64,000 nucleotides of DNA from Epinephelus fuscoguttatus (Eukaryota; Chordata; Actinopteri; Perciformes; Serranidae). The stretch spans positions 19,313,707 through 19,377,706 of the forward strand of contig NC_064770.1 of assembly GCF_011397635.1 (NCBI RefSeq). The letters run 5' to 3'. Shown here in pieces: positions 25,668 to 63,888 of this stretch. The position numbers and the translations under genes are program-made. The notes under the pieces were generated by a model that saw only the letters and a program-made list of their open reading frames with translations, was not told the origin of the DNA and ran no database searches. How positions within the stretch are numbered: position 1 is the stretch's first letter; each line of letters begins with the position of its first letter.

Positions 25668-28600
25668 TTAAAGGCATAATTTCTTCTCCATGTCCTCCTT
25701 TAGTATGTTCTTCTTGATCTAGAAAAAAAGTGGCAGCCATGTTAGTCTCATTGAAATCAACCATAATTCTGCACTGCCTTCTTGATGTTGCTGTTACATT
25801 TGGAGAATCGTACCTTTCCAGAGGCTGTCAGAGGGTAGCTGTCTACAAACATCACATAATGTGGAATCTTGAAGTGAGAAATCTAGGAAGGAACAACACA
25901 AACTGTACTGCTCTGCTCTGTTTTTGAGTATTTTGAGCATTTTTATTTAGTATGTCGCCCACTCTCACCTGGCCTTTGGAGAATGCTTTTATCTCCTCTG
26001 CACTGGAGGTCTGGCCCTCCTTCAGCCTGATGCAGGCACACACCTGCTCACCCAGCCTCTCATCTTTCACTCCAACCACCTGGGAAACAGACAGAGAAAT
26101 ACAACACCTAGAATGTAGGTTTAATGTAGTGCAACAAGGTGTATATTTTCTGTGACTGTTTGGAAGCAATGTAGTTGATCTTTGCTGCCCTCTAGTGGTT
26201 CCAAGTCTCACCTGCACCTCCTGTACTTTGGGATGTGTAAAGAGAAACTGCTCTATCTCAGCAGGGTAGATGTTCTCCCCTCCTCGGATGATCAAGTCCT
26301 TTATGCGTCCTTCAATGCGGCAGTATCCCAGACTGTTCAGACTGGCCGTGTCACTGTGTAGAAGAAAAATCACAGATGTAACATGTGAGCGTCAACCCTT
26401 GCTCCTCTAACATGCTTCTATATTTTCTCTGTGAGACATTCAGTTTACGTTGTACGTACATCGATCAGGTGACAGGTGAAGTCCTTTATAATATATATAC
26501 AATGTTCTGCTGGTAAAACCCAGGGTCCTGACATCCACATGAATGTCACTTGACACACACCACCCACACAAACACAATTGCAGACCAAGTACATTCCTTC
26601 ATGGCAACACCACTCCCTGATAGCAGCTCCACTGCCCCAACAGCACAATGCACCATGTCGTAATCTAAAAAACTGCTCAGGAATGGCCGAAGAAACGTCA
26701 AAGAGCTCAAGGTGTCTACCTGACCTCCAAATTCCACAGATCCTAATCTGTTTGAGCATCTGTGGAATGTGCCAGAACCAGTGCAATCCACAGAGGCCCC
26801 ACCTCACAACCCACAAAAAACCCACTGCCAATACCTTGGCACCTTGGCACCGCAAGACACTCAGTAAGGCCCCACCGTGGCTCAGACTTGATTCTGATCC
26901 ATTGAGGCATGGACATAGGAGCTCTGGGGTTCTGGAACATCTCACGGATGCTTGATCGGGTTGGGATCTGGGAAATTTGGAGACCAGGTCGACACCTTGA
27001 AGTCTTTGTCACGTTCCTTTGGCCATTTCTGAGCATGTTTTTGTGGTGTGGCAGGGCACACTGTCCTGCTTGGGGGAGGGCACGGCTATCAGGGAGTGCT
27101 TTTTAGGGGATGTACTTGATATGCAATGGTGTTTCGATGGGTGTTATATGTCAAAGGACGTCCATATTGATGCCAAGACCCAAGGTCTCCCAGTAGAACA
27201 TTGTATTGCAATAAGATAATCAATGTTAATCACTTCACCTGTCACTGGTTTTAATGTGGTGGCTGATTGGCGTATAGGATCTTACCCAGTCCTGTACCAG
27301 CGGTCTTGGGAGATAACCTCTCTGGTCTTCTCAGAATCTTGCCAGTATCCATGCATCACACAGCTGCCTCTGATCATCAGCTCTCCTGAGGCCCCCAGAG
27401 GGACAATCTCCCCAGTAGCAGGGTCCACCACTTTGGCCTATAATGAAGACACACAGGTATGAGTCACAGTGATGTGTTATGGTGATGTGTAGATAATAGC
27501 TCATAAAATGGGTCATACCTCAGTGTGGTTCATGATGCATCCAACAGTATTTATCTTCAGGTCCTCGTTGTCTTGTGGGAATCCCAGAAATGTAATGGGG
27601 CTGTTCTCAGTGGTTCCATAAGCTAACTGTTAAAACATGATGCACACTTTTTCTTATATGTGTTATACTCGTATAAGTATAACACAGCATTATTTAAAAA
27701 GGTAAAGGGCATGTAGCCGCTCACCGTTATCTCTTTCATGTTCATGTCTGTTCTCAGTCTTCTCACAATCTCAGGAGGGCATGGAGAACCTGCCATGATG
27801 CCTTTAACACAGCAGCACATACATAAAGACGCCTCAAAGGCCTCAAATACATAGTAATTATTTTTCAGTCTTCAAATCACTCACCAGCTTCAACTGATGA
27901 CAAATCATATTTCTGTAAATCACTTTGGCTGAGCATGTCGGTGAACATTGTGGGAGTGCCATAGACGACATTGCACCTTGAGTGAAAAAAAACCCAACAA
28001 GAATCGATAAAGGTGCCTGTTACTGTAGATTGAAAGTCATTTAGGTGATGAGCAGCATGCCATACTTTTCACTCTGAATGGCCTCTAGGTTGGCTCGGCT
28101 GTTGTAGCCAGTAGAGGGGAAGACCAGTGTGATGCCATGTACTGCCATATTCATCCCTCCCACTACAGAGCCAAAGCAGTGATACATGGGTACAGGCACA
28201 CACACTCGCACCTGAGGCTGATAGAAATATATGATTAGTTACATTTCACGTTCTGTTTTGGCAAATCAAGAGACAAGTATAGACTTACTCTCCATCCATA
28301 ACCCATTCGTAGACCCATAAAGTAGGCATTGTTTACAATATTGTAGTGGGAAAGACATGCTCCCTTTGGACTCCCTGTAGTCCCCTGGAACAAATAAACA
28401 AGCATCATTTTCCAGTCAAGTTACACAAGGTATACAGTGCATGTGTAACATTGTGAAAGATGCTGAAGGTTACTGATGTGAACTGGATGTTGATGGGCTC
28501 ATCGAAGGACAGTTTACTCTGCAGATCCATCAGCTCTTTGTGGTGTCGACTCTCTCCTGCTTGCATCACATCCTCTACGTGGAGCATCCCTGGCTGTCTG

Positions 28601-31600
28601 CTATCTGTCACAATCACCATACGCAAGTCTGGCAACCTGGCAGACCCAAAACAGGATTTTTATATTACATCCACAAAACTATTACTTATATAATGTGAAG
28701 TATTTACAGTTGTATACTCCAATTATGACAACAGAGGAAGAACATGTGTTAGATGTGACATTTCTCAATGGCTCAGTCAAACCTGGAGCTTTTGATCGTG
28801 CCTGTCGGCGCTGTGTTGATCTCTGGGCAGAGTTCCCTCAGCATCTCACAGAAATTTTGGGTTTTAAAGTGGGTTGGGCAGACCACAGCTTTACACTGGA
28901 CCTGCATGTGACAAATCAGGTCTGTTGAATGCATGTTCTCACAAAGTTAAAGTATTATTTTCACTGTGAAAAGAGTAAATTGTCAGATGTCATATTTTTG
29001 TATCTGACTTTGGTCCAGCAGCACAGTAAGTATGTGATTATCAGTGGTGAAAGAAGCACTCAGATCATTAACTGAAGTGGGAATAGCAGTGCCACAGTGT
29101 AGAAATACAAGCCCAATCCTGAATTCAATCTCTTACTTAAGCACAAGCAGTAGAATGTAAATGTACTTAAAGTAAAAAGTTAAAGTTCTCATGCTGAATG
29201 GTCCATTTCAGAACAGTGTTGAAGATATTAGTGAATTCATGTAGTATTCATGGATGATATGCTTCAGGTGGAGCTTCTGTTTAACTGCATATACTGCCAT
29301 GTAGCTTGTGAAGTTCACCAAGGTTTACAGCACCACTGATGGTTATGTAAGTATGCTGTTACACAACTCATCCTACCTTCTTTAGAGTAAACTCCACTTC
29401 CTTCACCTGATAGGCCGGGTTCAATGACACCTGCACATATAACAACAGTTCAACGTCATGCGCATGTATACAGCCCCTAAACACACATTTTCCAGAGGGC
29501 TTTATAGTACAAACCATATCTCATACATGATGTATTCTGTACTACATGACTGGATACTACATTACGACATACTATATTTTAGATTTACATCAAAAATGAC
29601 AGAATAGATCCCAGGGCCCCTGAATGGGGTCAATGTCCGGTTCATTGACACTTGACAGCAGAGTGTTTGGTAACACAGGGCACACTGTCTGTTTAACCGT
29701 GAGGTAGCACAAGTGTAATTTTAAAGGTGTAAATAACAATAAAGTAATAAGATTCAAAATGGGTAACTGACCAGTATAATTCCAACTTTGGCTGAAGCAA
29801 ACTGGAAAAGGATCCATTCATATGTGTTAGGTCCCCAAACTCCCAGTCTGTCGCCTCTCTTCAGGCCCAAAGCAAGCAGACCTGCAGCTGCCTTGTCAAC
29901 CTGCACCAATAAAAGTGACATCAGTGGCAGATGAAGTGCAAACCTAGGTATATTATACCTCTGTTTGCACTTGATAATCTTTTGTGATTTATTAGACAGT
30001 CACCAGTATAAATGAGTACTGTCTATAGGGAGATACATGTAGGCCCTTGGAAGCAAGAAGCTAAAGGCACAAAATCTAAAACTCACATCTTGTTGAAACT
30101 GTGCAAAGGTTTTCCGAATGCCATCCTGCAGGAAGACCACAGCTTCACGGTCAGGCCAGCGCTGCACTGTGGAGTCCAGGCTCTGGCCTACAGTCAGTGG
30201 GAGCAGAGGGATGGTGGAGGTGCCATGGACATAGCTGGTAGTCAGAGAGGGTTTGTTGGGAGGAGTGTCCACATGGAGGGACCTGGCATACATAGAATTA
30301 GGAAAAGAACAGCAGTCTATTATCGTGCATGGACTTTGATCTGAGCATCACAATTAATATCAATAATCCAGCTCTAAAATTCCTTTTCAGACACTTTGAG
30401 ATTAAACAGTGTTGCCAGTTGATATTTTCATAGTTCGCCCTCAGAAATATTGAGAGATCATGGAGACCTTGAAAATTTCAGACCAGAACCAAAACGCTGA
30501 TGACACTATACACTCATAATTTCTGCTCATTTATCATCACTGATGAACTCCACAATGACGATTACATCATTTTTAAACAGTACTTCGCTGTAAAAATAAT
30601 TACAACATATGGTAGTTTCTCTTTTACACTGTGCACCCTTCTGCATGCAAATCTTCGCGGGCATGCAGGACTTGACACAACACCAGTCTTATTGCATTAT
30701 GGGTAATGTCGGCACCGCCATGACAAGGAAAAATAATGCATAAAAAAAACTCTGGTTTCTGCTGTGTTTATTTTATGTATTTCGTTGCTGTTGACTCGGA
30801 AGCTTAGCAATGTACTGCCGCAGTGAAACATATTTTAGCCACCTGAAAAAAACAATATGAAAGTAAGTGTATGCTTTATTCACAATGCCAATGTAAAGTC
30901 AATTAGGCTCCTCTCCCCTGATGGACACACGGATTCCCTGATTCAATCACGTCACGTCAACCTCGTTTTCCTCAGTGCTATCTTTAACATTCCTGTATAC
31001 ACACAAAAACGCGGAAGTGTCCTTGATAACTCAACAATATGACAGGTTAATGTCAAGGCCATAAAATAAAATAAATGTATTTTGCCAGCTTTTGATAGCG
31101 AACGGCTTTAAGAGCATTGTGCTGTGGGCGGGTGGGGCGCGTTCCACTACTGTTTTGTAGCTGCTCTCTGCCGTCTCTGGGCTTAATGCCATTTCAGATT
31201 GCCATCCGTCTGCCGTAACTGAATCCAAATGCCACTAATAAATAAATAAATAAATAAGAAGATAAAAATGAGGCTGAGCACGGAAGAACCAGAGAGGAAA
31301 CACCATCACATGGAGCCGTCAGCCCCTGGCAACCCGGCCACCCTCCACTCCACCAGGGGAGAGCGGACCCCAAGCCAGCGGCTGCCCCGCTGGTTATACC
31401 TCCGACCGTGGCAGCTGTCACACAAACTGCTGCTGAAAATTACAGCCTACATTTTGATACAGGTAGGCTATATACATATTGCAAAACTCTGTAAAAGTAC
31501 ACCAAAGCATATTTTGTTTCCAAATATTTATTTGAAAACGAAACCATTCGGTCAATATAAAACATTTTGTTAGTAATAAAAAACAAATGTAATCTCAATG

Positions 31601-31685
31601 TGACCATGCCAGCCGGCGGGACTGTGGCTGAACCACTTCCAATGTTCGTTCATTCATTTATTCATTCATTCAATCAATCGCGTGT

Positions 31686-31745
<60 letters not shown>

Positions 31746-34700
31746 AGAGAGGAGTATCAATAAAAAAAAGTAATTATTTCGGTGTTTATTTCTTTTATTC
31801 TTCCGGTTTTTTTAATTAAAGTGCGTAATATAGCCAACAATATTATAGACCAAATGTTAATCTAATTATTATTGTAGAATGTATTTAGCAAATCACCACT
31901 CTCAACTGGAGACAGCAGCAAAAAAAAGGCATTATAAAAGCCGACAAATAGTGTTAATTAATTGAGACACTGAAGAGGTGGTCTCCTAAAGTAAATACAA
32001 TAATAGGCTAAATAGTATTTAAGCAATAATAAAGTGTCTAAACAATAATAAATATTATCTAAGTTATCTATTAGGCTACCATTCCACTCTGTAAATAGAT
32101 TTTAAAATTTCAATATAATTTTAATATTATTTTTGCTTATTTCATTATTGCTATTATTGGTTTTACTTTCTAGTAGTATTGTATTGTCTGAGGATGACTC
32201 ATGTTAGTAACTATCTACAGTAAAAAAGAAAAAAAAAACAAGCAAAGAAACAAACAAAATTCATTTTATACACTGGGCCTTCAAAGTGCTCTCTGAAACT
32301 ACACCTGGCATGGCTTGTGTCCAAAAAATGAAAAAATCTAAACTTTGTCGTAGAGCTAAACCAAATACATCATTGGAAAGGTCTCAACCTGGAGAGTAAC
32401 ATATGTCAGTATGAAGATTCTACATGGCTCCTGCTTTCAGCCATTGACCTTTGAACCTTGACCTCAGTGCATGTTTGAGGGCTTATAACTCAGCAACTAA
32501 AGGGGGTACAGACATGGGACCAGCTGTTATAGAGAGCTCTTGACCTCAGCTATCATGTGAGTGTAGTCAACAACTGGGGGTGCTGTCAGATATGGATAAA
32601 ATATGGATAAAATTAATTTTCACCCATTTAGAAATTAGATATTTAAAATCTGATTTCACAAATGTGTTTACCATCTCCTTAAAGTCCACAGTGTACTCTT
32701 AATTCAGTATTTACAACTTCCAAATCTGGGAAAAACACTTAGATTTTTAAAAAACTACAATTCCCTGGGACCACGCCATGCAGTTTGATACATATCAGCA
32801 ACATAGTTGTAGTTCTTCTGATTTGCAAAGTAGGGCTCTAAATAGGGTTGTAAAAAGATATATCTACTGAATATATCTAATATCAAGTAAAGCCGAACAC
32901 GTTATTACACTCCACCTAGATGAACTATGGTAAGAAAAAGTAAAGATGTCGGCTAATTTTCGATATTTTAGCTAATACACTAGAAACGGCGTTTTTGGGA
33001 CAGTAGGTTCGTTTGCGGCTTGTAAATTAGGGTTGTAAAAAGATAGATCTACTGAATAAATCTAATATCTAGTAAAGCCGAAGTAGTTATTACACTGCAT
33101 CTAGATGAACTATGTTAAGAAAAAAAGCAAGGATGTTGGCTAATCGTAGTTATTTTAGATAGTACTCTAAAAACGGCGTTTTTGGGACGGTAGGTTTTTT
33201 GCGGCTTGTTGTAAAACAGGGTCATAAAAAGATACATCTACTGAATATATCAAATGTCTAGTAAAGCTGAACTAATAATGACACTGCGCCTAGATGAAAT
33301 ATGTTAAGAAAAAGTAGGCATGATGGTTCATTTCAGATATTTTAGCAAGTTGTCTAGAAACGGCGTTTTTGGGATTGAATATTGGAATAGGCTATAACAA
33401 ATATCTAGAACAGCCGAACTATCACGTTATCATTATTATTATTATTGGTGGGAAATTATAACAGAGGAATGTATTTGCCGTTTTAATATCAAGAACACTT
33501 CCGTGTTTTTGTGTGTGTACAGGAATGTTAAAGATATCATTGAGGAAAACGAGGTTGACGTGACGTGATTGAATCAGGGAATCCGTGTGTCCACCACGGG
33601 AGAGGACCCTAATTGACTTTACACTGGCATTGTTTTCGTGGTGGCAGCACGTAATTTCAACCCATTACGTGCTGCCACCACAGAATGCGGTGTTAAGAGG
33701 TCGTGGTCATTTCACGTATTTCTGTGAGGTCAGGTTGGCTTTATTTGAATATTTTCTCTGCTTTACCTGTTGCCCTGTAGGACAACAGCAACTCTGGTGT
33801 TCTGCTAAGTAAAATTACTGTTTTGGTCAATGGAGTCTGAAGGCTCCAAGATAACGGCTTCCCCTTCAGAACAGACTGATAGACAGCAAGGTAAGGCGGT
33901 TTAAAAATTCTTATTATAGCATACACTTAAACTGATATTCCATTTTATAAGTGGGCCTTTTTTATGTGTCTGAAAACGAACCAGTAGATGAAGCATTTTC
34001 CATCTTCCTCATAACTACAACGTGAAGCTCATCAGTAAGGATAAGGTGATGAGTGATGTCCCTAACAGTGCTAACAATGGCAACAACACTGGAGGGTGGT
34101 TGCTATGCTTTTGCAATGCTGCTGTTGCTTTTGTCAGCGCTAACCGCTTGTAACCACTGCATGAGCACAGTGAGGAGTGGCACTGATTAGCTAGCCAGCG
34201 GGACACAAACACAGGAACTCATATGCACTTACAAACATACAAATGCTAACATGCATGCGCAGCTAGACCATCTTCCACAAAAATTATAAGAGAAGCTCAG
34301 ATTAAAACACAGAGAGGGAGCGTGACTACATTCTCTACTCTGCATACTCCACTATGGCAAACAGTGGTTTGCTGCAATATCAATGCTCTGAATGTCTATA
34401 CAGCTCCTTTACTAATATGCATTGTCTCTATTAGAAAAAAAGTCGAAGGCCGTTGCTCTTGAAAATGTGAACACAGCTCAATCGAGAAATTCTTATGTAT
34501 AAGATGTGAATATTAACATACCAACAGTCAGCAAATGAGAAATACAGGCAGACAAGGGCACACTGAAGGTTACAGGGTTAAAGTTTAATTTGATCCTTCA
34601 GGCTAAATGTGAAGAACTCAATAAGGCACAGACTGTGTCTAACAGCCTACTGTTTGTCTTTCAATCAGTAACTGAAAACCAGATTGATGTATATCTCACC

Positions 34701-34905
34701 ATGATCTTTATGCTTTAACTATTATAGACTTACATGGAACACAACCATTGTAAAGTGACACCATGTTGCCATTTGACCACTGAGGAACATAGACTTACCG
34801 ACACCACTGGAGCAAACTTGTGCTGTATAATTTCCAAGCCTTGCCATGTTTGAGTCCATCCACGTGTCTGAGACTGTGAGCACAGGATCTTAGCAGTGTT
34901 GACAT
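25668..34905 (-). CDS. acsf2: Mitochondrial medium-chain acyl-CoA ligase ACSF2, copy 1 (intact)
   Basis: Exons 1-16 are 34799-34905, 30087-30282, 29772-29900, 29377-29430, 28783-28901, 28474-28636, 28289-28384, 28066-28211, 27885-27976, 27725-27801, 27519-27626, 27286-27437, 26212-26353, 25969-26079, 25814-25882 and 25668-25718. They join in phase to 1812 nt, 603 aa (human ACSF2: 615 aa). The enzyme activates fatty acids to acyl-CoA via an acyl-adenylate, using ATP and CoA, in mitochondria. Residues 1-36 form a basic, Ser/Leu-rich presequence. Adenylation motifs are present: [10 protein letters not shown] (255-264), YGTTE (396-400), TGD with Asp481, [16 protein letters not shown] (495-510) and SGK with the catalytic Lys587. 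The start Met is the only one in frame with the presequence. This is the only copy of the array without a frame break. Intron 1 is unusually long (4.5 kb) and repeat-filled. Confidence 0.93.
26461..27276. mobile_element. Fold-back Tc1-like relic in intron 12 of copy 1
   Basis: The right edge (cacctgtcactggttttaat) is a typical fish Tc1-like terminal repeat, and the left edge (aggtgacaggtgaag) is its inverse. Both arms carry the antisense-readable 3' part of a Tc1 transposase in opposite orientation. For example, the motif around WETLGLGI is read from the right arm on the - strand, and a diverged mirror copy lies in the left arm. Stops and indels abound, so it is dead. Its right end lies 9 bp from the first base of exon 12 (27286), just beyond the splice donor. 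Confidence 0.75.
29030..29240. repeat. Dispersed repeat in intron 4 of copy 1
   Basis: Sequence around gtggtgaaagaagcactcag and cacagtgtagaaatacaag recurs in intron 4 of copies 2 to 5 (about 38400-38700, 45050-45340, 53330-53610, 61530-61910) and inverted near 8450-8510. It was probably in the ancestral acsf2 intron before the array expanded. Confidence 0.55.
30888..31033 (-). repeat. Inverted copy of the 33485-33660 repeat
   Basis: Read on the - strand it matches 33485-33640 closely: both contain acaggaatgttaaagat, gaggaaaacgaggttgacgt and gattgaatcagggaatccgt. It is the left arm of a large inverted repeat that brackets about 2.4 kb inside intron 1 of acsf2 copy 1. Confidence 0.8.
31110..31267 (+). 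promoter_or_regulatory. CpG-rich GC-box region, possible promoter
   Basis: A short CpG-rich stretch carries a GC box (gggcgggtggggcgcg, about 31126-31141) in otherwise AT-rich intronic DNA. It lies directly upstream of an open frame that ends at a good splice donor. It could be a promoter for a + strand transcript. The sequence shows only composition and motif. Confidence 0.3.
31268..31462 (+). other. Candidate orphan first exon, unknown product
   Basis: ATG at 31268 opens a 65-codon frame that reaches CAG|GTAGGC at 31462 with no leftover bases. The peptide is basic and Pro/Ser-rich, then becomes hydrophobic ([20 protein letters not shown]), as at the start of a membrane segment. GC content is well above its surroundings. 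I do not recognise the protein and cannot find a matching downstream exon in the window. It may be a captured gene fragment inside a mobile element or a chance open frame. Confidence 0.25.
31691..31744. repeat. (GT)n microsatellite
   Basis: This is an uninterrupted run of about 27 GT units. An adjacent CATT-rich tract (about 31640-31675) precedes it. The Cys/Val-repeat open frame across it is an artefact. Confidence 0.97.
32845..33425. repeat. Tandem repeat, unit about 185-189 bp, three copies plus a partial
   Basis: Units start near 32845 (gggttgtaaaaagatatatc), 33030 (gggttgtaaaaagatagatc) and 33219 (gggtcataaaaagatacatc), and a fragment follows from about 33372. Each full unit carries the shared block ctactgaat and ends with aaacggcgtttttggga (32984, 33171 and 33358). 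Units differ by substitutions and small indels, so the array is old. No coding capacity is seen. Confidence 0.85.
33485..33736 (+). repeat. Dispersed repeat with perfect hairpin
   Basis: This is the right arm of the inverted pair with 30888-31033, extended by a perfect 18-bp stem (33638-33655 and 33664-33681, starting gtggtggcagcacgtaat) around an 8-nt loop, then cacgtatttctgtgagg. A related copy with a decayed stem lies at 38945-39199 in acsf2 copy 2, and a more distant one at 790-1095. Confidence 0.8.
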
Positions 34906-35657: not shown

Positions 35658-36540
35658 TTAAAGGCTTAATTTCTTCTCAATTTCCTCCTTTAATACATTC
35701 TTCTTCACCTGTAAAAACAAAAAGCAGCAGCCATTTCAGTCTCAGTGTAGTAATCAACCACATTTCAGCGCTGCCATCTTAATAGTTAGGTTGCTGGTGT
35801 CAAATCAAAAGTGTCGTACCTTTCTTATAGCTGTCAGAGGGTAGCTGTCTACGAACATCACATAGTGTGGGATCTTGAAGTGAGAAATCTAGGAAGAAAC
35901 AACACAGACTGAACAGCTGTGCTTTGATTATGTGTATGCTGGGATATTTTGTGTATTATATCATCTGCTCTCACCTGGCCTTTGCAGAATGCTCTTATTT
36001 CCTCTGCACTGGAGGTCTGGCCCTCCTTCAGCCTGATGCAGGCACACACCTGCTCACCCAGCCTCTCATCTTTCACTCCAACCACCTGGGAAACAGACAG
36101 AGAAATACCACAACTAGAATGTAGATTTAATGTCTCAGCTCTTCAGTAAAACAATGATTATATTCTTGTGAAATTAACAATGAAAAGAACATCTACAATT
36201 GAAAGTTTGGCTTCAAGGTGTATCTTTGCTGTCAGCTGTTCAGAGAAAATGTCTCTGATCTTTGCTGCCATCTAGTGGTTCCAAGTCTCACCTGCACGTC
36301 CTGTACTTTGGGATGTGAATAGAGAAACTGCTCTATCTCAGCAGGGTAGATGTTCTCCCCTCCTCTGATGATCAAGTCCTTTATGCGTCCCTCAATGCGG
36401 CAGTATCCCAGACTGTTCAGACTGGCCGTGTCACTGTGTAGAAGAAAAATCACGGATGTAACATGTCAGCATCAACCCCTGTTCCTTTAACATGACTCTG
36501 TATTTTCTCTATGAGACATTCAGTGTACATTGTATGTACA

Positions 36541-36719
36541 TCAATCAGGTGACAGGTGAATTGAATAACACTGATTATCGTGTTACAATGCAGTGTTCTG
36601 CTGGCAAAGCCCTGGGTCTTGACATTAATGTGGATGCCACTTGACAAAGCACCACCCTCACAAACACCAATGCAGACCCTTCACCTGTCACTGGTTCCAT
36701 TTTAGCTGATCACTGTACA
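36541..36719. mobile_element. Internally deleted Tc1-like element, intron 12 of copy 2
   Basis: Terminal motifs caggtgacaggtgaattg and cacctgtcactggtt bound about 180 bp. The remaining interior (tgttctgctggcaaagccct) is the end of the same transposase region seen in the fold-back element of copy 1. It ends 9 bp before exon 12, as in copy 1, so the insertion predates the duplication. Confidence 0.7.
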
Positions 36720-38913: not shown

Positions 38914-38924
<11 letters not shown>

Positions 38925-38948
<24 letters not shown>

Positions 38949-39198
38949 GGTGGGAAATTATAACAGAGGAATATATTTGCCATTTTAATATCAAGAACAC
39001 TTTCATGTTTTGTGTATACAGGACGTTGTTGAATCAGGGAATCCGTGTGGACACCACGAAAAAGGATCCTAATTGACTTTACATTGGCATTGTTTCCATG
39101 GCACTGGCACGTAATTTCAACCCATTACGTGCTGCCACTACGTAATGTAAGCGTGCAGAGATCATGCTCATTTCACGTATTTCTGTGAGATCAGGTTG
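38925..39198 (+). repeat. Hairpin repeat inserted in intron 3 of copy 2
   Basis: An ATT microsatellite (about 38915-38948) is followed by ggtgggaaattataacagag, gattgaatcagggaatccgt's counterpart and a decayed hairpin (cacgtaatttcaacccatta), matching 33432-33736. It abuts the 3' remnant of a Tc1-like element, whose 5' part is missing here but present in copies 3 and 4. Confidence 0.65.
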
Positions 39199-50354: not shown

Positions 50355-53300
50355 TCATGCAAAAGGACACCCCTTGTTAATATAATTAACAGTTTTTCCA
50401 CTAAAACTACTTGAATGGAATAATTTCTTCTCCATTTCTTCCTTCAGTATGTTCTTCTTGACCTAAGAAGACAAAAAGCAGCAGCCATTTCAGTCTCAGT
50501 GTAGTAATCAACCATATTTTACCGCTGTCATCTTAATAGTTAGGTTGCTGGTGTCAGATCAAAAGTGTTGTACCTTTCTTATAGCTGTCAGAGGGTAGCT
50601 GTCTACGAACATCACATAGTGTGGGATCTTGAAGTGGGAAATCTAGGAAGAAACAACACAAACTGAACAGCTGTGCTTTGATTATGTGTATGCTGGGATA
50701 TTGTATTAAATCACCTACTCTCACCTGGCCTTTGCAGAATGCTCTTATCTCCTCTGCACTGCAGGTCTGGCCCTCCTTCAGCCTGATGCAGGCACACACC
50801 TGCTCACCCAGCCTCTCATCTTTCACTCCAACCACCTGGGAAACAGACAGAGAAATACAACAACTAGAGAAAGTTTGGCTTCAAGGTGTATTTTTGCCAT
50901 CGGCTGTTCAAAGACAATGTCTCTGATCTTTGCTGCCATCTAGTGGTTCCAAGTCTCACCTGCACCTCCTGTACTTTGGGATGTGTAGCAAGGAACTGCT
51001 CTATCTCAGCAGGGTAGATGTTCTCCCCTCCTCTGATGATCATGTCCTTTATGCGTCCTTCAATGCGGCAGTATCCCAGACTGTTCAGACTGGCCGTGTC
51101 ACTGTGTAGAAGAAGAAAAAAACAAAACACAACGTATAATGGAGTGCTGAATGAAAAAAGTAGGTTACATTAACTGTTAACAATGTGTTTATGTAAAAAA
51201 AATAAATAAATAACTGACAAATCTAAATATTAAATGTAATCTAAATGTGAAATCTTCAAGGGGAACACCACCCAAAGAAAGTTGAATCAATATGTGAACA
51301 TGAACTACTCTCTCTCAAAGCCAGAAACTGGAGAAGTCCCAAACTTGAGATATCATAGGGTATAAAGTCTGGAGTTGCTCCAAAGCCTGATTTTGTGGAC
51401 CCACATCATGTTTGTTTGGAATGAGGAAAAATCAGCTAAATGTGAGATGAGTGATCTTAAGATTAGAAATATATATCAGATAATTGTAACTGAATTTCTA
51501 AATTTGACACTGTCACATGTAACATACTATATTTCCCACCTGAACATGAATCCTTGTATTTACTTTTTTAATACCCATCAGCGCACATGGTACATGAAGG
51601 ATCTTACCCAGTCCTGTACCAGCGATCTTGGGAGATAACCTCTCTGGTCTTCTCAGGATCGTCCCAGTATCCATGCATCACACAGCTGCCTCTGATCATC
51701 AGCTCTCCTGAGGCCCCCAGAGGGACAATCTCCCCAGTAGCAGGGTCCACCACTTTGGCCTATGGCAAAGACACACCAGCACACGAAATCACAGTATAGT
51801 TATGGTGATGTGTAGATAAAGGTTTGTCCAAAAAAATGGGTCATACCTCAGTGTGGTTCATGATACATCCAACAGTATTTATCTTCAGGTCCTCGTTGTC
51901 TTGTGGGAATCCCAGAAATGTTACGGGGCTGTTCTCAGTGGTTCCATAAACACACTATTAAAACATGATACACGTGTTCACACATGCTGGAAAAGCTATA
52001 CTGACATTAGTTTAATACAGGACGTACAACCACTTACCATTATGCCTTTCACATTCATGTCTGTTTTCAATCTTCTCGCAACCTCAGGAGGACATGGAGA
52101 ACCTCCCATGAGGCCTAAAACACAGTAACACTTAGGTAAAAGTTTGCTAAACAGCACACCTGTTCCAATACAACACAGTAATTGTGTTTTAAAATCACTT
52201 ACCAATTTCAATTGATGACACATCATACTTGTGTGAATCTGGTTGGCTGAGCATGTCAATGTACATTGTGGGAGTACCATAGAAGACACTGCACCTTGAG
52301 TAAAAAACAAGAATCAGTTAAGTTGCATAACGTTGATTATTTGATAGTCATTTAGGTGATGAGCAGCATGCCGTACTTTTCACTCTGAATGGCCTCTAGG
52401 TTGGCTCGGCTGTTGTAGCCAGGGGAAGGGAAGACCAGTGTGATGCCATGTACTGCCATACAAATCCCTCCAGCTACAGTACCAAAGGTGTGGTGCATGG
52501 GTGCGGGAATGCACACTCGCACCTGAGGCTGATAGAAATGCGGAAAATAAGATTAATTACACTTTCACTACCTGCGTTTTCTTTAAGTCAAAAGACAAAT
52601 ATGGACTTACTCTCCAGTCATAACCCATTCGAAGACCCAAAAAATAAGCATTGTTTACGATGTTGTGGTGGGAAAGACATGCTGCCTTTGGACTCCCTGT
52701 AGTCCCCTGGAACAAATAAACAAGCATCATTTTCCAGTCAAGTTACACAAGGTATACAGTGCATGTGTGATAGTGTGAAAGATGCTGAAGGTTACTGATG
52801 TGAACTGGATGTTGATGGGCTCATCGAAGGACAGTTTACTCTGCAGATCCATCAGCTCTTTGTGGTGTCGACTCTCTCCTGCTTGCATCACATCCTCTAC
52901 GTGGAGCATCCCTGGCTGTCTGCTATCTGTCACAATCACCATACGCAAGTCTGGCAACCTGGCAGACCCAAAACAAGATATCCACTGTACCATTAACTGT
53001 AGATTGTGTGTTAAGTATTTACAGATTCTTGCTCCCAAAATGAGAATACAGGAAGAATATGCGTTACATGTGACATTTCTCATTGGCTCAGTCAAACCTG
53101 GAGCTTTTGATCGTGCCTGTTGGAGCTGTGTCGATCTCTGGGCAGAGCTCCCTCAGCATATCACAGAAATTTTGGGTTTTAAAGTGAGTTGGGTAGACCA
53201 CAGCTTTACACTGGACCTGCATGTGACAAATCAGGTCTGTTGCATTTATATTCTTGCAGAGTTATATATAAGGATAGTTTTTTTCTATGAAAATACTGAA

Positions 53301-56300
53301 AATACATGTAGTTCTCTCATGTGGTGGAAGTCTCAGGTCTTTTACTTAAGTAAAATGTAGTAAATGTAGCAATACCGCAGTGTAGAAATACTACACAACA
53401 GTATTTCATTCAAAATACTAAAGTATAAACTTGTATGCTGTATGACTCATTTCAGAGAAACATGTATTGTCTATTTATATTTTGTATTATTAATATGAAC
53501 CTGAAAAGTAACTTGAAACTGCAGGTATAAAATAAATGTAGTGGAGTAAGTTTAAAGTAGCAAAAAAACTGAAATACAGTACGGTACAAGTTCCTCAAGT
53601 GAATGTACTTAGTTACTACCTTCTTTAGAGTAAACTCCACTTCCTTCACCTGATAGGCTGGGTTCAATGGCACCTGCACATATAACAACGGTTTCATGTC
53701 TTTGTATACAACTCCTCAGCACATTTTCCAAAGGACCTTATAGGACATGCCATATTGTACACATGATATAATCTGCACTGCATGATCACACTGCTCAAAC
53801 AAATTAAGGCAACTCTTAATCGTCATAATATCACACCAAGTCAGTTTAATGTCAGGGATTTCAATTGGTCAATTTAGGGAGAACAAGTGATTGTGAATCT
53901 GTTTCACCTGCTTTGAAAAAAAACCAAAATGGGGTTGTCTTGTGGTGTCCACAGACATTTGCTCTGCTTATCCTTCCTGACTGATTCTTCTTTAGTTTTG
54001 TGTTCTGCTGGTAGTATGAGGTGGTGACGTGCAGCCCAGTCAGGTTGCACAGGTAGTCCAGCTCCTCCAGGATGGCACATCCATACATGTGGTCATAGGA
54101 AGGTTTGCTATGTCTCCCAGCACAGTCTCAAGAGCATGGACGAGATACCAGGAAACCAGCCATTACACAAGGAGAGCTGTACAGGGCTGTAGAAGAGGAT
54201 CAACCCAGCAGCCGGACAGGTATATCTGCTGCTTTGTGCAAGGAGGAGCACTGCCAGAGCCGTACAGAATGACCTCCAGCAGGCTACTGGTGTGCATGTT
54301 TCTGACCAAACTGTCAGAAACAGACTCCATGAGGGCTTGACGTCCTCTCGTTGAACCTGGACTCTCAGCCAAGCACTGTGCAGCTCGATTGGCACTCACC
54401 AGAGAACACCAGAGTTGGCAGGTTTGCCACTGGTGCCCCGTTCTTGTCACGGATGAGAGCATGTTCACACTGAGCACATGTGAAAGGTGTGAAAGAGTCT
54501 GGAGACACTGTGGTGAACGTTATATTGCCTGTAACATCATCAAGCATGACCGATTTGGCGGTGGGTCAGTGATGGTCTGGGGAGGAGGGTTGCACAGACT
54601 TCCATGTCACAGCCAAGGGTACCCTGACTGCTGATAGGTGAAATCCTCAGAGTGACTGCCAGACCTTACGCTGGTGCAGTGAGCCCTGGGTTCTTCCTGG
54701 TGCAGAACAATGCCCAGCTTCATGTGGCCAGAGTGTGTAGGCAGTTCCTGGATGAAATCATTGATGCCATTGACTGGCCCTCACTGGATCTCACTGATGC
54801 CCTGAATCTGGGAGGATATCCCCCAGGACACCATCCGCCAACTCATCAGGTGCATGCCCAGATGACGTTGGGAGTGCACGCAGGCACATGGGGACCATAC
54901 ACGCTACTGAGTCACAGTATGAATTGCTGTGATAAAAGGATCAGCCTGTGATTTCAAAATGTACTTTCTACTTTTAGTGGGATTTTGAATCCAGCCATCA
55001 GTTGGTTAATGATTTTGGTTTTCATTGACTGGTGTTATGCCATTTGTTCTCAACAAATCATACAGTGTACATCAGTAAAGATTTTCAACTTAAATAATGT
55101 ATTGATCAAGATCTGATGTGTGATTTAAGAGTTCCCTTAGTGTCATACTTATTTCTTTTACAACAGAGTAGCTCTCCAGGGCCTCTGATAGGGGTCAATG
55201 TCCTGCTCACTGACACTTGACAGCAGGGTGTTTGGGAACACAGAGCACAATCTTTAACCACAAGATTAAACTGTAAATCTGTAAACACCTCCCATACTGA
55301 CCAGTATAATTCCAGCTTTGGCTGAAGCAAACTGGAAAAGGATCCATTCATACGTGTTAGGTCCCCAAACTCCCAGTCTGTCGCCCGCTTCAGGCCCAAA
55401 GCAAGCAGACCTGCAGCTGCTTCCAACCTGCATCACAACAGCAGATATTTTGTCACCACAGTAATCATTCTTCAGATCATGGATAGTTTTTAAGGGTTGA
55501 AACATGCATAAAGGCACCGAATCTAAAACCGACATCTTGTTGAAACTGTGCAAAGGTTTTCCGGATGCCATCCTGCAGGAAGACCACAGCTTCACGGTCA
55601 GGCCAGCGCTGAACTGTGGAGTCCAGGCTCTGGCCTACAGTCAGGGGGAGCAGAGAGATGGTGGAGGTGCCATGGACATAGCTGGTAGTCAGAGAGGGTT
55701 TGTTGGGAGGTGTCCACATGGAGGGACCTGGCATACATAGAATTAGGAAAGCACAGGTGTTTCACACCAAGTAGGAGCCACTGTTTCAGTGCACTGATAA
55801 TAACCCTTAAAGCTGACAAAACATTATATAGAAAAACAGTCTGTGCTTATTTTTGTCATTATAGTCATGATCACTGAGTTTTCTCTTTTGTAATAAAACT
55901 GAATCTCCACATTTTCATTGGGTCACCGTGAACTCAGAAATATTCAGTTGAATTCGTAGCAGAGGTGGCATAACCTACAAGTACAGCACACGAGTAAAAG
56001 AATATGTTTTTCTAAGAAACAAGTAATTTTCATGTTCCTTTTTTGAACTGTAGCCCACCAGAACAAGAAGCATCTTCCAGCGTCAGTTCCTGCCCCAAAT
56101 TGGCCGCACTTTTCATACCAATACTGCAATCGACTACTACACACGTTCAGTAGGCAGCATACCCCAAAGTTAACCCAGTTGTTGAGCATTTCTCACTGGA
56201 CTGAATCAGCGCCAATGAGGTAACAGTTACCTCAACCTTTCACCTTTGACCTTTCACCTTTGATCCAATCAATTCATTGCTGAGTCCCAGTGGACTTTGT

Positions 56301-56953
56301 GCCAAATTTGAAGAAAGTCCCTCAAGGCATTCTTGATATAGTGCATTGATGGACGTATGTATGTACATATGGACATAATGCCTCATTCAACAGCTGTCAC
56401 TGACACAGAGGCATAAAAGCTGTCCATTCTGAGTCAGCCGGTGTTATGCAAACAATTGTTGAATTTCTTTGCCATTAGTCCTAATGCATTGTCTCAATGT
56501 AAGACTTGGCTCTGGAAGATGAACTGAATATTTATTGCCTGAAATTTATACCTAGATGATAATATTGCTTATCAACAGTTTGCAAATGAGAAATACAGGC
56601 AGTCAGGGGGCACACTGAAGGTTAAAATGTTAGATGACAACCAGCTGTTTAATTTGACCTCCTCCTGGCTAAAAGTGATGGACCCAGTGAGATTAGTATT
56701 GTCTGTAATACTGTTTTTTAAATCACTGACTGACAACCAATTCGATGTTCTGATCGTTGTCACTTGATTTAAAAGCATCTTCAATAAGTATTTGAGTACA
56801 ACCATGTTGCCATTTCACCACTGAACATAAAATGCATTGAACTCACCGACACCACTGGAGCAGACCTGTGTTGCATAATTTCCAAGCTTTGCTGTGTTTG
56901 AGTCCATCCACAGATCTGACACTGTGAGCACAGGATCTTAACAGTGCTGACAT
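50355..56953 (-). pseudogene. acsf2: acsf2 copy 4, frameshifted in exons 2 and 3
   Basis: Exons are 56847-56953, 55534-55727, 55302-55427, 53620-53673, 53098-53216, 52796-52958, 52611-52706, 52377-52522, 52203-52294, 52038-52114, 51847-51954, 51608-51759, 50960-51101, 50725-50835, 50574-50642 and 50355-50462. Exon 2 lacks 2 nt (near 55711), so the presequence frame soon stops. Exon 3 lacks 2 nt near 55423 and 1 nt near 55385, which scrambles 14 residues but restores the frame. All other exons are intact. The last exon has the same 19-codon extension as copy 3. The lysine motif reads TAIRK, and the exon 8 core reads PMHHTFGT where copies 1 to 3 have PMYHCFGS. A second ATG in exon 1 (56905-56907), out of frame with the presequence, is in frame with the enzyme after the 2-nt loss. 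Confidence 0.72.
53789..55142 (+). mobile_element. Dead Tc1-like transposon in intron 3 of copy 4
   Basis: Same insertion as in copy 3, with the same flanks, the same damaged right end and the same Asp-to-Asn change (VQNNAQLH, about 54704). There are only scattered differences, for example FTDES became VTDES. It arrived by duplication of the gene, not by a new insertion. Confidence 0.88.
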
Positions 56954-58665
56954 TGCTCCTAAGTATCAAACAGTCTGTTACAGCTGGATCTAAACACTCG
57001 CTGGTGAGAAGATACTGGGTCCTAACAACTAATATGCTCTTTTTTTCCTGCCTTTCTTGAGTTGAAATTTACCTCTCATGAGTAATCTTTAACTTCCACT
57101 CATTCTCACTGGCTACAAGCCAGTTGTCAATTTAGAGAGATGTATACTGTCTGCACTAAAAAAGCCAAAGACAAGGAGCTGATAACAAACATGAGCCACC
57201 AGGACAGAAAGAGGCTGGCACTACACATCAGTATATTTAATAATAACAAATAAACTGATATATATATGCACTTTACATACAATAAATGCAGCACAGAGTT
57301 CTCTACAATGAGCGCATTATAAGCACTGAGTGCTTCACATGAAAATAGACATAGTGGACATAAAACAGACAAGGCAATTTAATATAAAAGGACATTTAAA
57401 ACAGTTTAAAACATGGATTGACTGATTCATAAAATCATAGATTTGTAAAACTATAAATCATAAAATCCAGCAAGATTCTAAAAGAGTTGCAGCAGCGTAA
57501 AGCGTAAATAGAAAGTGGAAATTTATTGAAACATCTTGTCTAACAAATTGACACAGAAATATTTCAGAAATGAACAATATAATGCCAAACCCTTGTCAAC
57601 TTGACTTGGCAGCACAGAAATTGTATTGCACATTGCATCTGTTCCTGAGTTATGGCGCTGAATAATGGCCAGAAAAGTTACATTATGATGCCACAGTGAA
57701 GCTGACCTTTGACCTTTTGGATATAGAATGTCATCATTTCATTATTTTATGCTATTAGACATATGTGTGACATTTTGTCATAATTACATATACATTCTTG
57801 AGATATGGCTAAAACATGTTGTGTTATGCTACAAATGTCTGACAGGATAAAATAATAAAGTGATGACATTTTTTTATTCAAAAGGTTGATAATCACAAAC
57901 TGAACAAAATGTTGGTTTGAATGATTACAGCTTCACATGATGGAGCCTGCAGTGCCACCTACAGGCCATGGGATACTTTTTCCTGTGAACACGCAGATCC
58001 ATGCCAAGTAGGACATGGATCAAGCATCCCACAGTGCAATCCAGGACCAACATTGCTATCAACCAATCACGGCCCTCTAAAATCATCAGTGTGCTGCGCC
58101 CGTGCTTCTTTTAAAATTCTTTGAGCTTCTTCAGAGCTAAGCTACGTCAACAAAGTTGAAGTTAGGACAAGTGAAAAAAATCCTTATGAGGATTAGCTAG
58201 ATGAGTTAGCTTGCTAACAAGGGAGGCTATGCTAACAAGTAAGCTTGCCAATAGGCTACAATATTGTTCACTAACATTAAAGAGTGAGGATAATATCATT
58301 TTTCAGTAGCAAAGTCCTGTGATTAACATAGTTTCCCTCCTTTTTTAATAACATATTCAGACTTTTTCGCAAGATTGCAGTGCTATTGTTGATCCAGGAC
58401 CACACTGCCATGTTGACTCTGGATAGTTTGTTTATATCAACAAGAACATAGCAGAGATGGTCCTGGATCAACACTAGCACTGTAATCTTGCAGAAAAAAA
58501 AGAAAGAATTTATTGAATAGGCTTTAAAAAGAAGGGAAACTAATGTGTATTGTGAGTCTTTGCAACCACAAAATTATATTATCTTTAGTCTTAATGTTAG
58601 TGAAAAATGCAATCACATCATGCAAAAGGACACCCTTGTTTAACAGTTTTTCCACTAAAACAACA
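56954..58665. other. Spacer between acsf2 copies 4 and 5
   Basis: This is a near copy of spacer 3-4, displaced by about 8.26-8.28 kb. The AAT microsatellite is almost lost (about 57240). The inverted repeat recurs at 58369-58402 and 58458-58491. No coding frame is recognised. Confidence 0.5.
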
Positions 58666-61600
58666 TCAATGGAATAATTTCTTCTCCATTTCTTCCTTCA
58701 GTATGTTCTTCTTGACCTAAGAAGACAAAAAGCAGCAGCCATTTCAGTCTCAGTGTAGTAATCAACCATATTTTACCACTGCCATCTTAATAGTTAGGTT
58801 GCTGGTGTCAGATCAAAAGTGTTGTACCTTTCTTATAGCTGTCAGAGGGTAGCTGTCTACGAACATCACATAGTGTGGGATCTTGAAGTGGGAAATCTAG
58901 GAAGAAACAACACAAACTGAACAGCTGTGCTTTGATTATGAGTATGTTGGGATATTGTATTAAATCACCTACTCTCACCTGGCCTTTGCAGAATGCTTTT
59001 ATCTCCTCTGCACTGCAGGTCTGGCCCTCCTTCAGCCTGATGCAGGCACACACCTGCTCACCCAGCCTCTCATCTTTCACTCCAACCACCTGGGAAACAG
59101 ACAGAGAAATACAACAACTAGAGAAAGTTTGGCTTCAAGGTGTATTTTTGCCATCGGCTGTTCAAAGACAATGTCTCTGATCTTTGCTGCCATCTAGTGG
59201 TTCCAAGTCTCACCTGCACCTCCTGTACTTTGGGATGTGTAGCAAGGAACTGCTCTATCTCAGCAGGGTAGATGTTCTCCTCCTCTGATGATCAAGTCCT
59301 TTATGTCCTTCAATGCGGCAGTATCCCAGACTGTTCAGACTGGCTGTGTCACTGTGTAGAAGAAGAAAAAAACAAAACACAACGTATAATGGAGTGCTGA
59401 ATGAAAAAAGTAGGTTACATTAACTGTTAACAATGTGTTTATGTAAAAAAAAAAAAATAACTGACAAATCTAAATATTAAATGTAATTCTAAATGTGAAA
59501 TCTTCAAGGGGAACACCACCCAAAGAAAGTTGAATCAATATGTGAACATGAACTACTCTCTCTCAAAGCCAGAAACTTGAGATATCATAGGGTATAAAGT
59601 CTGGAGTTGCTCCAAAGCCTGATTTTGTGGACCCACATCATGTTTGTTTGGAATGAGGAAAAATCAGCTAAATGTGAGATGAGTGATCTTAAGATTAGAA
59701 ATATATATCAGATAATTGTAACTGAATTTCTAAATTTGACACTGTCACATGTAACATACTATATTTCCCACCTGAACATGAATCCTTGTATTTACTTTTT
59801 TAATACCCATCAGCGCACATGGTACATGAAGGATCTTACCCAGTCCTGTACCAGCGGTCTTGGGAGATAACCTCTCTGGTCTTCTCAGGATCGTCCCAGT
59901 ATCCATGCATCACACAGCTGCCTCTGATCATCAGCTCTCCTGAGGCCCCCAGAGGGACAATCTCCCCAGTAGCAGGGTCCACCACTTTGGCCTATGGCAA
60001 AGACACACCAGCACACTAAATCACAGTATAGTTATGGTGATGTGTAGATAAAGGTTTGTCCACAAAGTAAGACATACCTCAGTGTGGTTCATGATGCATC
60101 CAACAGTATTTATCTTCAGGTCCTCTTCATCTTGTGGGAATCCCAGAAATGTTACGGGGCTGTTCTCAGTGGTTCCATAAACACACTATTAAAACATGAT
60201 ACACGTGTTCACACATGCTGGAAAAGCTATACTGACATTAGTTTAATACAGGACGTACAACCACTTACCATTATGCCTTTCACATTCATGTCTGTTTTCA
60301 ATCTTCTCGCAACCTCAGGAGGACATGGAGAACCTCCCATGAGGCCTAAAACACAGTAACACTTAGGTAAAAGCTTGCTAAACAGCACACCTGTTCCAAT
60401 ACAACACAGTAATTGTGTTTTAAAATCACTTACCAATTTCAATTGATGACACATCATACTTGTGTGAATCTGGTTGGCTGAGCATGTCAATGTACATTGT
60501 GGGAGTACCATAGAAGACACTGCACCTTGAGTAAAAAACAAGAATCAGTTAAGTTGCATAACGTTGATTATTTGATAGTCATTTAGGTGATGAGCAGCAT
60601 GCCGTACTTTTCACTCTGAATGGCCTCTAGGTTGGCTCGGCTGTTGTAGCCAGGAAGGGAAGACCAGTGTAATGCCATGTACTGCCATACAAATCCCTCC
60701 AGCTACAGTACCAAAGGTGTGGTGCATGGGTGCGGGAATGCACACTCGCACCTGAGGCTGATAGAAATGCGGAAAATAAGATTAATTACACTTTCACTAC
60801 CTGCGTTTTCTTTAAGTCAAAAGACAAATATGGACTTACTCTCCAGTCATAACCCATTCGAAGACCCAAAAAATAAGCATTGTTTACGATGTTGTGGTGG
60901 GAAAGACATGCTGCCTTTGGACTCCCTGTAGTCCCCTGGAACAAATAAACAAGCATCATTTTCCAGTCAAGTTACACAAGGTATACAGTGCATGTGTGAC
61001 ATTGTGAAAGATGCTGAAGGTTACTGATGTGAACTGGATGTTGATGGGCTCATCGAAGGACAGTTTACTCTGCAGATCCATCAGCTCTTTGTGGTGTCGA
61101 CTCTCTCCTGCTTGCATCACATCCTCTACGTGGAGCATCCCTGGCTGTCTGCTATCTGTCACAATCACCATACGCAAGTCTGGCAACCTGGCAGACCCAA
61201 AACAAGATATCCACTGTACCATTAACTGTAGATTGTGTGTTAAGTATTTACAGATTCTTGCTCCCAAAATGAGAATACAGGAAGAATATGCGTTACATGT
61301 GACATTTCTCATTGGCTCAGTCAAACCTGGAGCTTTTGAGCGTGCCTGTTGGAGCTGTGTCGATCTCTGGGCAGAGCTCCCTCAGAATATCACAGAAATT
61401 TTGGGTTTTAAAGTGAGTTGGGCAGACCACAGCTTTACACTGGACCTGCATGTGACAAATCAGGTCTGTTGAATGTATATTCTCACACCGTACTATATAA
61501 GGATTATTTTTTTTCTGAGAAAATACATGTGGTTCTCACTGGTGAAAGAAGTACTCAGACATTTTACTGAAGTAAATGTAGCAATGTCACAGTGTAGAAA

Positions 61601-63888
61601 CACTCTGTTACTGGTAAAAGTCCTGCATTCTAAAATAATACTTCACTTAAAGTACTAAAGTAAAACTCGTATGGTGTATGACCCATTTCAGAGAAACATG
61701 TTTTGTCTATTTATATTTTTATTATCAATATGAACCTAAAAATTAACTAAAAACTAAAGGTATAAAATAAAGGAAGTGAAGTAAACAACATAGTACAATA
61801 TTTGCCTCTAAATTATAATGTAGAAGAAGTATAAAGTAGCAAAAAAAAAAACAAAAAAAAAAACAACTCAAGTACAGTACAGGTACCTGGAGTGAATGTA
61901 CTTAGTTACTACCTTCTTTAGAGTAAACTCCACTTCCTTCACCTGATAGGCTGGGTTCAATGGCACCTGCACATATAACAACAGTTTCATGGCAAATATA
62001 CATGCAACCCTTCAACATACATTTTTCAAAGGGCTTTGAAGTAAATACCATGTCTTACACATGATACATTCTGCACTGCATGGCTGAATGCCTTATTACA
62101 ACATACTGTATATAGAAATAAATACTTATTTCTTTTACAACAACAGAGTAGCTCTCCAGGGCCCCTGATGAGGGTCAATGTCCTGCTCACTGACACTTTA
62201 CAGCAGGGTGTTTGGGAACACAGAGCACACTGCTAAACCACAAGATTAAACTGTAAATGTAATTTCAAATCTGTAAACAACTCTGATACTGACCATTATA
62301 ATTCCAGCTTTGGCTGACGCATATTGGAAAAGGATCCATTCATACATGTTGGGTCCCCAAACTCCCAGTCTGTCGCCTCTCTTCAGGCCCAAAGCAAGCA
62401 GACCTGCAGCCGCCTTGTCAACCTGCACCAACAAACGTCACAACAATAGCAGGTATGTTGTCACCGCTGACAGTAGAATTCTGACATTTTACAATTTAGC
62501 TTTCCTGCCTTTGTTAGCGTTTAATGATTTCTTTTTACTGCATGCAATGAAGGTATTCCTGTAAATCAGAGGACGTGATGATTTCCTTAAGAAGAAAAGA
62601 ACAAATTCACATTGTGAAACTAAATTTCATGGGAGTTGCATCATTTAAAGTCACTGACACACCAGACAGTCATTTTAAAAAGGCACATTCTGTGCTTTAG
62701 GATTAACACGTGATTTTGTCAGGTGTAAAAAGTTCTAACAGCTATTTTATTGAGTTAACATTGAAATGAATCACATCTTGTTGAAACTGTGCAAAGGTTT
62801 TCCGGACGCCGTCCTGCAGGAAGGCCACAGCTTCACGGTCAGGCCAGCGCTGCACTGTGGAGTCCAGGCACTGGCCTACAGTCAGGGGGAGCAGAGAGAT
62901 GGTGGAGGTGCCGTGGACATAGCTGGTAGTCAGAGAGGGTTTGTTGGGAGGAGTGTCCACATGGAGGGACCTGGCATACATAGAATGAGGAAAAGCACAG
63001 CAGTCAGTTTAAGTAACAAGTAATTTTCATGTTCCTCTTTTTAAGTGTAGCCTACCAAAACAAAAGGCATCTTCCAGCGACAGTCCTTGGACCAAATTGG
63101 CCATAATGCTCTTGGGGTCGGGTTTTCAGATCTAGTAATACATCCATGGGCTACAACTTTGCAAGTGATCTCTCCAGCCCTCCGTAAGCTCAGTCCTCTT
63201 CTGCTTTAGGCTAGCAAGATTACATTAGCCGGTACTAGAATAACAAACCCAAATATCTTCTGATTAAACTGTAGTTGGTTGAGATGCATTATGGGTAATT
63301 TACAGTGACACAGTGACCTTTGACCCTTGACGTTTAACTACCAAAATCTGATCAGTTTTTCTTTGAGTCCAAGTTGAGGTTGGTGCCAAAATTGAAGAAA
63401 GGCATTCTTGAGATTCTTGAGATATTGCAATGTGACCTTAAACCAAGGAAATCTGATCAGTTCATCAAGTTCAAGTGGACGTTTGTGCCAAAGTTGAGGA
63501 AATTCCCGCAAGGTGTTGTTGAGATATTGTGTTCACAGCAATGGGACAGACAAAAACGTATAGCCACACCTGTCACCGGAGCAGAGGCATAAAACCTGTC
63601 CATTCTGAATCAGATAGATAGTTGAATTTGTGCTTTTTTAAACTGATGAACAACCAATCCTATAGGCTATTTAGATATCTCACAATGATCTTTGTCACTT
63701 GGTTTAAAAGCATCTTCAGTAAATACTTGAGTACAACCATGTTGCCATTTGACCACTAAACATAAAATGCATTGAACTCACCGACACCACTGGAGCAGAC
63801 CTGTGCTGCATAATTTCCAAGCCTTGCTGTGTTTGAGTCCATCCACAGATCTGACACTGTGAGCACAGGATCTTAACAGTGCTGACAT
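58666..63888 (-). pseudogene. acsf2: acsf2 copy 5, frameshifted in exons 8 and 13
   Basis: Exons are 63782-63888, 62775-62970, 62294-62422, 61913-61966, 61327-61445, 61025-61187, 60840-60935, 60608-60751, 60434-60525, 60269-60345, 60078-60185, 59840-59991, 59214-59351, 58979-59089, 58828-58896 and 58666-58716. Exon 8 is 2 nt short (near 60653), which leads to TGA at 60611-60613. Exon 13 is 4 nt short (two 2-nt losses near 59280 and 59306) and destroys the GRIKD...GGENIYP motif. The rest is in phase. The last exon has the ancestral 51-nt length and ends KKLFH. The lysine motif reads TAIRK. Its 5' half (exon 5 to exon 1) lacks the Tc1 element and differs from copies 2-4, so it is an older branch there. 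It is the most 5' copy in transcription order. Confidence 0.75.

Follow-up and report, generated by a model that had tools for sequence, protein, structure and literature searches.

Tandem gene arrays of teleosts that evolve by birth and death are among the closest described parallels to the locus analyzed here, and recent tandem duplication in teleosts is, to judge from its title and abstract opening, the subject of PMC3464592. The window is a stretch of 64,000 nucleotides of Epinephelus fuscoguttatus (C19:19313707-19377706) that contains a large part of an array of acsf2-type genes. As in birth-and-death arrays, the copies stand head to tail, form mosaic blocks, contain homogenized tracts, and include dead members; the array differs in that its open copies lie only at its two ends. 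In the literature found on recent teleost tandem duplication, titles and abstract openings do not name acsf2, and no title or abstract opening found in our literature searches describes an acsf2 array. We found seven full copies, both outermost ones (copies 1 and 7) being open and the five inner ones (copies 2 to 6) being broken. We think it likely that the array grew recently, that its two ends are under purifying selection, and that the inner copies are young pseudogenes inactivated separately. Such a process would be of a known, ordinary kind, with a gene and a pattern that are uncommon, and the very young array would allow amplification, homogenization, and separate inactivation to be read side by side.

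Copies of the array and the enzyme they encode

Gene models rebuilt from the sequence place five acsf2 copies in the window, head to tail on the - strand and with 16 exons each. This independent rebuild agrees with an earlier sequence-only reading in coordinates and counts. Sixteen exons is also the number in vertebrate ACSF2. The copies fill the interval between window position 25668, the last base of the copy 1 stop codon, and position 63888, the A of the copy 5 ATG. We searched the genome (1.047 Gb, 26 contigs, among them C19 and C20) with exon DNA. A search with the terminal exons, followed by reading of the flanking DNA, established that the array continues past the window edge with two further copies and a remnant. 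The copies, the remnant, and an unlinked paralogue on C20 are as follows.

34905..25668, - strand: acsf2 copy 1, 16 exons, 1812 nt, open, 603 amino acids, 15 of 15 introns GT-AG
34905-34799, 30282-30087, 29900-29772, 29430-29377, 28901-28783, 28636-28474, 28384-28289, 28211-28066, - strand: copy 1 exons 1 to 8, from high to low positions
27976-27885, 27801-27725, 27626-27519, 27437-27286, 26353-26212, 26079-25969, 25882-25814, 25718-25668, - strand: copy 1 exons 9 to 16, from high to low positions
40624..35658, - strand: acsf2 copy 2, 16 exons, broken in exon 8, first in-frame stop at codon 307
48670..42278, - strand: acsf2 copy 3, 16 exons, broken, first in-frame stop at codon 182
56953..50412, - strand: acsf2 copy 4, 16 exons, broken, first in-frame stop at codon 79
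63888..58667, - strand: acsf2 copy 5, 16 exons, broken, first in-frame stop at codon 335
C19:19379713-19386221: acsf2 copy 6, 16 exons, broken
C19:19387966-19393152: acsf2 copy 7, 16 exons, open, stop at codon 604 (603 codons), 30 of 30 splice dinucleotides
C19:19394354-19394828: exons 12 to 14 of the remnant of an eighth, mostly deleted copy, intron 12 nearly gone, with a stray exon 1 beside it at 19393835-19393934
C20, exon 2 at 39037350, + strand: acsf2-type paralogue, 14 of 16 exons (2 to 15) in order, aligned codons without a stop

The five-fold array of the earlier reading was thus an effect of the window edge. Its statement that only copy 1 is open holds in the window and fails for the array, since copy 7 beyond the edge is open as well; the count thus rises from five copies with one open to seven with two open. 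Arrays get cut by window edges, and counts taken within a window call for caution.

The paralogue on C20 came from a genome search with exon 2 which, among the best-scored candidates, returned the seven array copies and C20:39037350, the latter 75% identical. It resembles the array copies in having exons 2 to 15 in order and the motifs GTTGAPKG and TITGK, with 66 to 69% amino-acid identity. It differs from them in that one copy was seen and that exon 2 to exon 15 spans about 45 kb. Together with the two open copies, this paralogue provides internal controls for the array.

A Pfam scan of copies 1 and 7 found both full domains of the ANL superfamily, namely, AMP-binding (PF00501, residues 72 to 461) and AMP-binding_C (PF13193, residues 512 to 587), with E-values in copy 1 of 5.1e-90 and 1.6e-18, respectively. 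The best curated subfamily of copy 1 was PRK12583 (NF009233), which scored 678 bits over residues 51 to 601, below its cut-off of 832 bits. On the basis of this best match, we name the genes acsf2-type by resemblance, which would make their product a mitochondrial acyl-CoA synthetase. Exon 1 codes, by eye, for a basic leader. For comparison with bacteria, a conserved-stretch scan was run and the best 80 of 594 relatives were taken, 76 of which had a usable open reading frame (ORF). The identity to these 76 relatives was 36 to 50%, and 150 columns were at least 95% conserved among them. Besides the subfamily score below cut-off, the array differs from ACSF2 and PRK12583 in its seven tandem copies and in two substitutions, Gly264Ala in copies 2 to 6 and Gly586Arg in copies 2 and 4 to 7.

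The first of these substitutions affects the last Gly of the P-loop motif TSGTTGxPKG. Copy 1 matches the motif, and copy 7 reads TSGSTGSPKG, with one Thr-to-Ser change (Thr258Ser) at a conserved column. Gly264, which belongs to the 150 conserved columns, is retained by both open copies and the C20 paralogue, and copies 2 to 6 have Ala there. When changes were polarized against the C20 paralogue, Gly264Ala and Ser146Pro were the two residues whose derived state is present in every broken copy and absent from both open ones. The C-terminal Lys, which we take to be catalytic, is retained in all seven copies. Beside it, in exon 15, lies Gly586, which is conserved in the C20 paralogue and the bacterial relatives; it is Gly in copies 1 and 3 and Arg in copies 2 and 4 to 7, including open copy 7. 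A further ten residues, some at conserved columns, are derived in copies 4 to 6 only and all lie within exons 8 to 10, which may reflect either weaker constraint or a changed function.

Duplication blocks and homogenized tracts

Parts of the array are nearly identical to one another, and the positions of these parts are given here with those of two enlarged introns.

44300..53230: recent duplication block, first occurrence, comprising the 5' half of copy 3, intergenic DNA, and the 3' half of copy 4
52574..61459: recent duplication block, second occurrence, comprising the 5' half of copy 4, intergenic DNA, and the 3' half of copy 5
28363..28653: gene-conversion tract of 291 bp (exon 6, intron 6, and flanks), in which copy 1 is identical to copy 2
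45401..47034, + strand: copy 3 intron 3, seemingly enlarged by the insertion of a transposon-like element, with + strand ORFs between 45644 and 46683
53674-55301: copy 4 intron 3, of like size

The block at 44300-53230 and that at about 52574-61459 are ∼99% identical, with substitutions at 25 of 2176 exonic and 59 of 6678 noncoding positions. The repeat unit measures 8.2 to 8.3 kb and has both ends inside genes, so that copy 4 resembles copy 3 in its 5' half and copy 5 in its 3' half. Beyond the window, exons 1 to 10 of copy 6 match copy 4 at ∼99% or more (noncoding divergence, 0.62%), and exons 12 to 16 of copy 7 match copies 4 and 5 at ∼99% or more, with 5 substitutions in 1322 aligned bp against copy 5. 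Such near-identical mosaic blocks are the signature of unequal crossing-over.

The tract shared by copies 1 and 2 is of another kind. The two copies diverge by 13.1% elsewhere in exons 5 to 8, and the probability of a 291-bp run of identity is ∼1e-15, which identifies the tract as a product of gene conversion between copies. Purifying selection as the sole cause of the identical exon 6 was rejected because intron 6 is identical as well.

Intron 3 measures 1634, 1628, and 1633 nt in copies 3, 4, and 6 versus 341, 829, 327, and 271 nt in copies 1, 2, 5, and 7, respectively. A copy 4 intron-3 ORF (54020-54340) gave helix-turn-helix Pfam matches below cut-offs, and a copy 3 intron-3 ORF (46360-46683) gave no Pfam match. 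The insertion is presumably of the Tc1 type.

The array probably expanded and was rearranged by unequal crossing-over whose breakpoints fall within genes, together with gene conversion between copies. Breakpoints of this kind would account for the recurrence of near-identical 8.3-kb units and for the mosaic structure of the inner copies. Since this recent expansion, copies 1 and 7 at the two ends would have stayed under purifying selection. The inner copies 2 to 6, all with Gly264Ala, would have been surplus, and small indels would have disabled each of them independently; in copy 6, the loss of a splice acceptor and a stop would have contributed as well. The substitution Gly264Ala probably came before the loss of copies 2 to 6 and perhaps prompted it, and copies 1 and 7 probably make the enzyme.

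Lesions, constraint, and competing explanations

Each broken copy carries lesions of its own. Copy 2 has 141 nt instead of 146 in exon 8 (37618-37478), a net change of -5 that resolves into -5, +1, and -1 in one alignment and into four gaps in another. Copy 3 shows +4 in exon 5 (near 44894) and -3 in exon 6 (near 44668); copy 4 shows -2 in exon 2 (near 55710) and -2 and -1 in exon 3 (near 55423 and 55385); copy 5 shows -2 in exon 8 (near 60654) and -2 twice in exon 13 (near 59305 and 59280). In copy 6, deletions have taken 8 nt from exon 4 and 10 nt that include the acceptor of intron 5, and codon 256 reads TAG. In exon 16, copies 3 and 4 (42278 and 50412) have lost the stop codon at which copies 5 and 7 end, and their last codons continue beyond it. 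No lesion is common to two copies as the same event, although copies 2 and 5 lose different numbers of bases in one short C run of exon 8. Copies 2 to 5 retain 15 of 15 acceptors and 15 of 15 donors each (120 of 120 splice dinucleotides), which bears out the earlier description of different frame-breaking indels with splice sites kept. A single inactivating lesion common to the broken copies was rejected, none being seen, as was programmed frameshifting, because the lesions differ in place and kind.

Codon changes private to single copies were also counted. Copy 7 has 7 synonymous and 2 nonsynonymous private changes, copy 1 has 16 and 21 (including its deeper branch), and copies 2 to 6 pooled have 11 and 26 plus 1 stop. 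Random substitution would give 22 to 28% synonymous changes. The private changes of copies 2 to 6 are 29% synonymous and fit this neutral expectation (P = 0.22 to 0.51), whereas those of copy 7 depart from it (P = 0.0007 to 0.003), as do those of copy 1 (P = 0.004 to 0.03). Copy 7 differs from copies 2 to 6 by Fisher's test (p = 0.018), and omega between copies 1 and 7 is 0.23. The sequence-only reading had left two alternatives, young pseudogenes decaying independently and an imperfect consensus. The former, which we regard as likely, gains support from the ∼99% identical blocks, the absence of a common lesion, the private substitutions of the broken copies, which fit neutrality, and the loss of the P-loop Gly. 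Evidence drawn from sources other than the indels (the private changes, the omega values, and the derived residues) leans toward true pseudogenes.

Several results weigh against this explanation. Fisher's test shows no significant difference in private changes between copy 1 and the broken copies (p = 0.23) or between the pooled open copies and the broken ones (p = 0.074); the contrast between open and broken copies therefore rests on the nine changes of copy 7 and is moderate. Omega of pairs with a broken copy is 0.30 to 0.57, not 1, values to which earlier, constrained evolution and conversion contribute. Conserved sites are altered in the open copies too, with Gly586Arg and Thr258Ser in copy 7 and departures at 27 of the 150 columns in copy 1, so that such departures alone are no proof of loss. 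Lesions are clustered within exon 8 of copy 2, exon 3 of copy 4, and exon 13 of copy 5, which independent decay does not predict and which points somewhat to a local process or to trouble with the consensus. Finally, copies 2 to 5 have no in-frame nonsense change and all their splice sites are intact, as fits very young pseudogenes but also consensus errors.

Consensus errors are the most serious rival. If reads of near-identical copies were mixed in assembly or polishing, the frame breaks would be errors and copies 2 to 5 would be truly open or nearly so. This would suit the predominance of 1- and 2-nt events among the 11 indels of copies 2 to 5 (8 of 11), some within short runs of G or C and several clustered in single exons, as well as the lack of nonsense and splice changes and the apparent enrichment of small non-repeat indels in exons, where the copies are most alike. 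Long-read errors are expected mainly as 1-nt homopolymer slips, but five of the 11 events are of 2 nt and three of 1 nt. Nor would consensus errors explain why private substitutions fit neutrality in the broken copies and not in copy 7, why Gly264Ala coincides exactly with the broken copies, why copy 7 lacks the two exon-13 lesions of copy 5 despite their near identity over exons 12 to 16, or how copy 6 came by its stop and its deletions of 8 and 10 nt. We thus regard this rival as unlikely, though with an appreciable chance of being right, and suggest that the indels are present in the animal and not merely in the assembly.

Two other explanations are much less probable. Copies 2 to 6 might still be in use as a group that has undergone neo- or subfunctionalization, with a changed substrate pocket in exons 8 to 10 and an altered P-loop, the frame breaks being polymorphic or erroneous. 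Exons 8 to 10, which contribute to the acyl-binding half of enzymes of this type, hold all ten residues derived in copies 4 to 6 only, and their omega is 0.48 between copies 4 and 7 versus 0.21 between copies 1 and 7; in addition, copies 2 to 4 are 95 to 96% identical to copy 5 over 310 bp around its exon 1. All five inner copies are nevertheless broken, each by different lesions, changes fall at the bacterially conserved positions V295, Y298, C300, and G264, and no omega above 1 comes with useful counts, the value of 1.17 for exons 8 to 10 of copies 3 and 7 resting on 2 synonymous changes. This makes a retained function very improbable. Least probable of all is that the array is an assembly artefact, with haplotypes or reads of fewer real copies placed end to end, as the ∼99% identical blocks spaced 8.2 to 8.3 kb apart might suggest. 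Intron lengths differ among copies (497 to 4516 nt for intron 1 and 105 to 932 nt for intron 12), the intron 3 insertion occurs in copies 3, 4, and 6 only, and copy pairs differ at 1.6 to 7.1% of coding sites; these differences imply that copies 1, 2, 5, and 7, at the least, are separate.

Within the young blocks, indels in exons are not depleted in the inner copies, i.e., no frame constraint is visible. Coding or splice-site positions hold 12 of 33 indel events versus 22% of columns (p = 0.044). Misalignment at the exon-16 stop accounts for two of the 12, and 10 of 31 remain without them (p = 0.13). With filters chosen after the data had been seen, the proportion was 10 of 22 when simple repeats were left out (p = 0.013) and 10 of 19 when events were additionally limited to 10 nt (p = 0.003). 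A two-way count gave 8 of 23 coding (p = 0.18). Open copy 7 has no coding event among 4 private indels, compared with 10 of 22 non-repeat events (p = 0.14, a rough value since the 22 include some copy 7 events). A control against frame-intact coding sequence elsewhere gave P = 0.0014 but is partly circular, as it counts both open copies, and was not relied on. An exon excess of small indels is possible and is not claimed here. It is improbable that inactivation of the inner copies was not passive, with indels commoner in exons and splice sites than in equally young introns and intergenic DNA. If it were so, selection might have silenced surplus enzyme doses after amplification; alternatively, repair may have been mutagenic at exons, since exons alone resemble one another closely enough to act as templates for ectopic recombination. 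An excess that held on read-verified sequence would make the array a test case for silencing of surplus doses by selection versus recombination errors.

Neighboring sequences

Other features lie on either side of the array. A single-exon RING-finger ORF of 209 amino acids (window 11491-12120, - strand) matches six RING models and appears to resemble rnf222. It adjoins an ndel1-like gene near 20429-22541 that has a NUDE_C match below cut-off. Past the far end of the array, an ORF at C19:19411851-19412318 (- strand) has no Pfam match at an E-value of 0.01 and looks meteorin-like by eye. At window positions 9505-9747, 243 bp match their own reverse complement at 74% and are perhaps a foldback element or one like a miniature inverted-repeat transposable element (MITE).

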